A stretch of 64,000 bases of DNA, taken from NCBI GenBank assembly GCA_017993055.1, contig JAGONM010000001.1:1-64000 (forward strand), in the 5' to 3' direction. The stretch comes from Armatimonadota bacterium (lineage in GTDB: Bacteria; Armatimonadota; UBA5829; DTJY01). Positions 46,885-47,289 of this stretch are shown piece after piece. A program made the position numbers and the translations under genes. The number at the start of each line of letters is the position of its first letter. Position 1 is the stretch's first letter. The notes below the pieces were generated by a model. It ran no database searches and was not told the DNA's origin. It saw nothing but the letters and a program-made list of their open reading frames with translations.

Positions 46885-47049
46885 TCAACCGGCCCGATCC
46901 AGGGCCAGCAACAGCCCGAACGCCGCGCCGAGCACGACAGCGACGTACGGGTTGCAGAACATCTTTCACCCGCCGCCCATCTGGCGGCTGAGGACGCTCA
47001 GCCCGTAGCCTACCGCCCCGCCGATGACGATTCCGAGAGCCATCTTCAT
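46885..47049 (-). CDS. Candidate selenocysteine-containing small membrane protein (DUF6132-like), in-frame TGA
   Basis: 54 codons if the TGA at 46968-46966 is read through as selenocysteine (residue 28); otherwise two pieces of 27 and about 25 residues. Reading: hydrophobic glycine-rich helix (ALGIVIGGAVGYGLSVL), then GGG-U-KMFCNPY, then a second helix (VAVVLGAAFGLLLAL). This two-helix hairpin with a central cysteine motif before NPY fits the DUF6132-like family, in which the position of the TGA is normally Cys (C-x3-C-NPY or CPITSNPY). Here it reads U28-x3-C32. GGGAG lies seven bases before the ATG. It follows an FmdB zinc-ribbon gene. Alternatives are a pseudogene or a sequencing error. Confidence 0.55.
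46932..46948 (-). promoter_or_regulatory. Possible bacterial SECIS hairpin
   Basis: Downstream of the in-frame TGA, GTACG (46948-46944) can pair with CGTGC (46936-46932, one G-U) around a 7-nt loop. The loop starts about 22 nt after the TGA, within the range for bacterial SECIS elements, but the stem is short and the loop lacks a clear leading G. Weak support only. Confidence 0.25.
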
Positions 47050-47100
47050 TGCGTTACTCCCATGTGAGAGCCGGTGACCACCGGCTCAGGACCTGGGCTT

Positions 47101-47289
47101 TCACCCGCCGGGTTTGCAGTCGCCGCCGCCACCCAGGAAACGGCTGAGCGACGAGAAGACGGAGAGCGTCCGGCTTGTCTCAGTAGCGCCGCACTTCGGG
47201 CATTCCTTGCCCTCTCTTGAGGCGTCAACCGTTTCCAACAGCGAGAACCTCTCGCCGCACTTCGAGCACTTGTATTCGTAGACAGGCAT
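47101..47289 (-). CDS. FmdB-family zinc-ribbon protein
   Basis: 62 aa. MPVYEYKCSKCGERFSLLE followed by ECPKCGA gives the four-cysteine ribbon of the FmdB regulatory family; the tail is Ser/Gly-rich and ends DCKPGG. Function of the family is not established. AGGTGA six bases upstream of the ATG. A TATAAT lies at 47335-47340. Probably co-transcribed with the selenoprotein candidate 51 bp downstream. Confidence 0.92.
   Translation of the reverse strand: MPVYEYKCSKCGERFSLLETVDASREGKECPKCGATETSRTLSVFSSLSRFLGGGGDCKPGG

Follow-up and report, generated by a model that had tools for sequence, protein, structure and literature searches.

The 2026 review catalogue of prokaryotic selenoproteins lists 119 families and subfamilies (PMC13188914). 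The bacterial UxxC and CxxU selenoproteins resemble the 54-residue protein considered here in having a UGA codon, a downstream hairpin, a Sec-Cys pair and homologues with Cys in place of Sec (PMC13188914); they differ from it in that the 54-residue protein has neither a thioredoxin fold nor any of the listed domains, its Sec lying in the loop of a predicted two-helix membrane hairpin. YeeE/YedE (GUxSG), also a listed selenoprotein family and a transporter by name, shares with it a Sec that adjoins glycine (PMC13188914). DUF6132 (PF19628) is like it in length, in its two predicted helices, in the GxxxG of helix 1, in the Cys or Sec followed by an NP that starts helix 2, and in having thioredoxin and FmdB genes as neighbours, but carries the Cys of CPITSNP where the 54-residue protein has Sec, with the partner Cys at about -5 rather than at +4.

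DUF6132 has no entry in the 119-family table, and the text of the review mentions neither DUF6132 nor Armatimonadota (PMC13188914). No selenoprotein model was found among the NCBIfam 20.0 matches for 52 family members, and a full-text search for DUF6132 returned no relevant paper, though other literature or preprints could contain the Sec form. Because the site is conserved in 52 genomes and the adjacency to thioredoxin is seen in a different phylum as well, this DUF6132-related Sec family looks like an undescribed selenoprotein family, which would be an addition from across a phylum in which selenium has received little study.

The gene and its in-frame TGA

The putative selenoprotein gene lies at positions 46,885-47,049 on the minus strand of the window (the whole 64,000-nucleotide stretch of DNA that was analysed). 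It encodes 54 amino acids, with two predicted helices flanking a GGGUKMFCN loop; annotation readily misses or shortens the genes for such very small two-helix membrane proteins. A ribosome-binding site, GGGAG, is found at 47,057-47,061 (minus strand), 7 bases upstream of the ATG at 47,049, and the codon for residue 28 is a TGA at 46,966-46,968 (minus strand). The gene coordinates, the GGGAG-7-ATG arrangement and the in-frame TGA had all been given in the original prediction and hold on re-reading. The read-through translation is MKMALGIVIGGAVGYGLSVLSRQMGGGUKMFCNPYVAVVLGAAFGLLLALDRAG; past codon 28 the frame runs on as KMFCNPYVAVVLGAAFGLLLALDRAG up to the true stop, the final TGA at 46,887-46,885. 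The end position is the same in close homologues, where the stop is TAA or TAG. An AlphaFold2 model of moderate confidence (mean pLDDT 68) places helices at residues 2-23 and 34-53 and the Sec in the loop that joins them. The membrane location is inferred; as judged from charges, the KSB1 forms suggest that both termini are inside, while the Armatimonadota forms are ambiguous. Searches of plasmid DNA with the gene region gave no match, and a search of solved structures gave nothing useful.

Using a family profile run over 291 Armatimonadota genomes, 66 matches were obtained at E<=0.01, of which 65 were kept; L112, lacking Sec as well as Cys at this position, was left out of the homologue set. 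The aligned codon is TGA in 52 of the 65 homologues and Cys in the other 13, with nothing else seen, and Cys is also present at the site in 42 sequences from KSB1, the only other phylum sampled for the family. (One KSB1 match with TGA, L146, was dropped as being out of the family on reading.) The expectation that relatives would have Cys or Sec at residue 28 is thus met, as is the earlier claim that a single protein family continues past the TGA: 52 Armatimonadota genomes carry the same read-through gene, and as the aligned codon is TGA in all of them, the pattern is not due to chance. Most of the homologue sequences come from metagenome-assembled genomes. The family tree, with only 53 columns, is poorly resolved, so the 9 Sec/Cys changes and 9 changes in the side of the partner Cys that it implies are only indicative.

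The codons downstream of the TGA evolve as protein, judging by the way they differ among close relatives: in family f8 there are 283 synonymous against 83 non-synonymous differences after the TGA, while the two shifted frames give 41/304 and 20/325 synonymous/non-synonymous. One alternative is that the TGA is a real stop, leaving a 27-residue peptide or a gene that is decaying or was mis-sequenced, and TGA is indeed an ordinary stop in this genome, being the final codon of this same gene. That reading is barely tenable when 52 genomes share a TGA at this codon and selection acts in frame past it, and in view of the hairpin and the Sec machinery described below.

Selenocysteine machinery and the downstream hairpin

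The genome carrying the gene (3.7 Mb, 99.6% complete) was searched for the Sec machinery, as had been proposed, and selA, selB, tRNA-Sec(TCA) and selD are all present. The selA match scores 550 bits, with tRNA-Sec(TCA) about 0.9 kb away, both on contig C21; selB is full length, at 374 bits against a cut-off of 242, and selD scores 398 bits. The catalytic residue of SelD is itself encoded by an in-frame TGA, in YSHGGGUACKVGP (L019:1501-2427, contig C70), making SelD a selenoprotein too. Across the family, selA is found in 48 of the 52 TGA genomes as against 2 of the 13 Cys genomes (Fisher p=1e-7); the genomes being related, these counts are not independent, and the p-values are uncorrected for kinship. 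Full-length selB is present in all four TGA genomes that lack selA, so that no TGA genome is without both genes, and for that reason the missing selA is read as probably an assembly gap. Over the 291 Armatimonadota genomes as a whole, 149 have a selA match, 138 of them above the cut-off; with about half of the phylum carrying the gene, the use of Sec is widespread in it.

The original prediction also pointed to a short hairpin downstream of the TGA as a possible SECIS. Such a hairpin does exist, at 46,911-46,955 (minus strand), and is SECIS-like, with support both from covariation and from an excess of stability. Its base is about 14 nt past the TGA; the apical 4-nt loop, UGCU, at 46,934-46,931, is 31 nt from the UGA and has G in position 2. 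With this loop and an MFE of -24.3, it agrees with the bSECIS model given in PMC13188914, which was used for the comparison. The segment is more stable than its synonymous recodings with local codon usage (z=-4.1), none of 200 being as stable. The 52 Sec forms have a mean stability z of -1.34, an effect not seen in the Cys forms, whose means in the two phyla are -0.26 and -0.19 (p=1.7e-7). A gathering scan of the 64,000-nt window with Rfam found nothing.

In 22 relatives with the same hairpin type, a 14-pair helix is paired in 87% of cells; pairs at third codon positions flip within it, for example from G-C to C-G, and cells with a double change number 21 as against 10.1 expected, a level reached in 0 of 500 shuffles. 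A second clade of 21 sequences has a different, compact hairpin, CCGGC-GGU-GCCGG, which is almost frozen at synonymous sites: the third bases of two Pro codons, and that of the codon separating them, are identical in 21/21, and two sequences have U-A in place of C-G as the closing pair. Among the Cys-form relatives in the family of this clade, f16, the hairpin motif has been lost in four of five (L096, L107, L110, L111) and is kept in L095.

A hairpin that is nearly frozen or covarying after the TGA, the tight association with the Sec machinery, and Cys as the only alternative residue all stand against a real stop. A still more remote reading has the TGA reassigned, or read through as some other residue such as Trp, without Sec; this would equally leave the frame open across the TGA, but the homologues have Cys and never Trp at the site, and the TGA genomes carry the Sec apparatus. 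A pseudogene, a sequencing error and code reassignment were all considered and rejected. The recoding site, the machinery and the hairpin are computational observations. That codon 28 specifies Sec is very probable, yet neither protein data nor selenium labelling is available, and Sec insertion itself is inferred; SelB and tRNA-Sec would decode the UGA as selenocysteine, directed by the hairpin just downstream.

Kinship with DUF6132 and the partner cysteine

The likeness to DUF6132 that had been noted in the original prediction stands at the level of profiles and is weak for the 54-residue protein taken alone, which scores 18.3 bits against DUF6132, under the Pfam gathering cut-off of 23.2, and is without the N-side Cys. 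The family profile matches a KSB1 DUF6132 profile over its full length (hhalign probability 99.1, E=5e-19, 52 columns), with the Sec falling on the Cys of CPITSNP, the second DUF6132 Cys. Two Sec-form relatives from family f13 (C-x4-U-PMTSNP) exceed the Pfam cut-off on their own, L071 with 31.3 bits and L074 with 29.7. Since the profile match is strong and its own score lies below the cut-off, the 54-residue protein is called a homologue of DUF6132 and not a Pfam member; on these alignments the selenoprotein family is homologous to DUF6132, while the present copy does not meet Pfam's definition of it. No NCBIfam 20.0 family reached its cut-off with the 54-residue protein. Weak matches to XapX, MyrrCad, MscL and glycine-zipper families were discounted, the similarity being merely hydrophobic or glycine-rich.

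The U-x3-C motif had been taken for a classic selenoprotein pattern; this needs a small correction, the classic motif being UxxC. Nor does the protein qualify as a thioredoxin-like fold with UxxC or CxxU, since it consists of two helices with U-x3-C, and there is no thioredoxin match to it in Pfam or NCBIfam. The partner Cys, residue 32 in the 54-residue protein, is at +3 or +4 in 47 of the 65 Armatimonadota members and at -3, -4, -5 or -7 in 17; none has it on both sides and one on neither, so that 64 of 65 have exactly one. All 42 KSB1 Cys forms have it on the N side. Among the Sec forms, L099 (G142), which reads KRLGSTUGSQRYPA, alone lacks a partner Cys altogether. A single partner Cys, on whichever side, points to a Sec-Cys (or Cys-Cys) redox pair, as far as can be told from sequence, with a two-ligand metal site as a possible alternative.

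Gene neighbours and a possible redox role

The upstream neighbour of the 54-residue gene is an FmdB-type zinc-ribbon gene at 47,101-47,289 on the minus strand (Zn_ribbon_8, E=5.9e-14), not a thioredoxin; the two genes are probably co-transcribed. A thioredoxin gene with WCGPC or WCAPC precedes the family gene by 13-31 bp on the same strand in f8 and f4, and the f4 thioredoxin begins with an apparent signal anchor or lipoprotein signal. In the Cys forms of f12 and f19 the thioredoxin is on the downstream side, and in f12 a thioredoxin reductase comes after it. A recurrent arrangement in KSB1 places thioredoxin reductase, thioredoxin and DUF6132 in that order, often along with FmdB (L124, L136, L145, L148, L153 and others); of 43 KSB1 loci, 23 have FmdB on the same strand and no more than 600 nt away. 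Over both phyla, thioredoxin motifs are on the same strand within 600 nt in 28 cases, on the opposite strand in none and farther off in 2, the corresponding figures for FmdB being 26, 0 and 2. The thioredoxin neighbour is absent for most members outside f8, f4, f12, f19 and the KSB1 groups, for example from most of f16.

A thioredoxin-linked redox role for the family is likely on this evidence, its function not having been shown, and the fuller reading of a 54-residue selenoprotein that is also a membrane selenol/thiol partner of the thioredoxin system seems a good bet. The protein would form a two-helix membrane hairpin with its Sec or Cys in the glycine-rich loop where helix 2 starts, pairing with the one nearby Cys as a redox pair; bound to the membrane, it would serve the thioredoxin system by cycling between a reduced form and a selenenylsulfide (or disulfide). 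This cycle, like the direction and substrate of the electron flow, is inferred; what has been observed, by computation, is the homology, the rule of a single partner Cys and the linkage to neighbouring genes.

The alternative that most needs weighing keeps the selenoprotein and has the Sec/Cys pair bind or move a soft metal or a chalcogen (mercury, for instance, or sulfur/selenium as in YeeE/YedE) with no thioredoxin exchange. Ion or sulfur handling would suit small membrane proteins of two helices that are rich in glycine and have paired Cys, and a partner Cys on either side would suit a metal site too. YeeE/YedE is a much larger transporter. Both YeeE/YedE (GUxSG) and a MerT-type protein with Sec are among the catalogued selenoprotein families (PMC13188914). 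Against such a function are the thioredoxin and thioredoxin reductase neighbours in two phyla and the lack of any metal-resistance gene among the conserved neighbour clusters found, and it is rated unlikely, though not negligible.

Taken together, the exchange of Sec for Cys, the rule of a single partner Cys and the linkage to thioredoxin give a testable redox hypothesis for DUF6132, whose function is unknown, in organisms with the Cys form. One speculative extension is that the thioredoxin system has in DUF6132 and its Sec form a minimal redox module in the membrane. Two-helix hairpins would assemble into an oligomer, and their Sec/Cys-NP would relay reducing power between thioredoxin and a target that is membrane-bound or extracytoplasmic, which would make the module a far smaller counterpart of CcdA/DsbD.

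Two other neighbours recur downstream. An OsmC-like gene, a redox-type neighbour, is found just downstream of the selenoprotein gene in f1 and f4 (L024, L025, L064, L066), and a HemW/HemN-like radical SAM gene directly follows it in several f16 genomes (L085, L090, L097, L105, L113).
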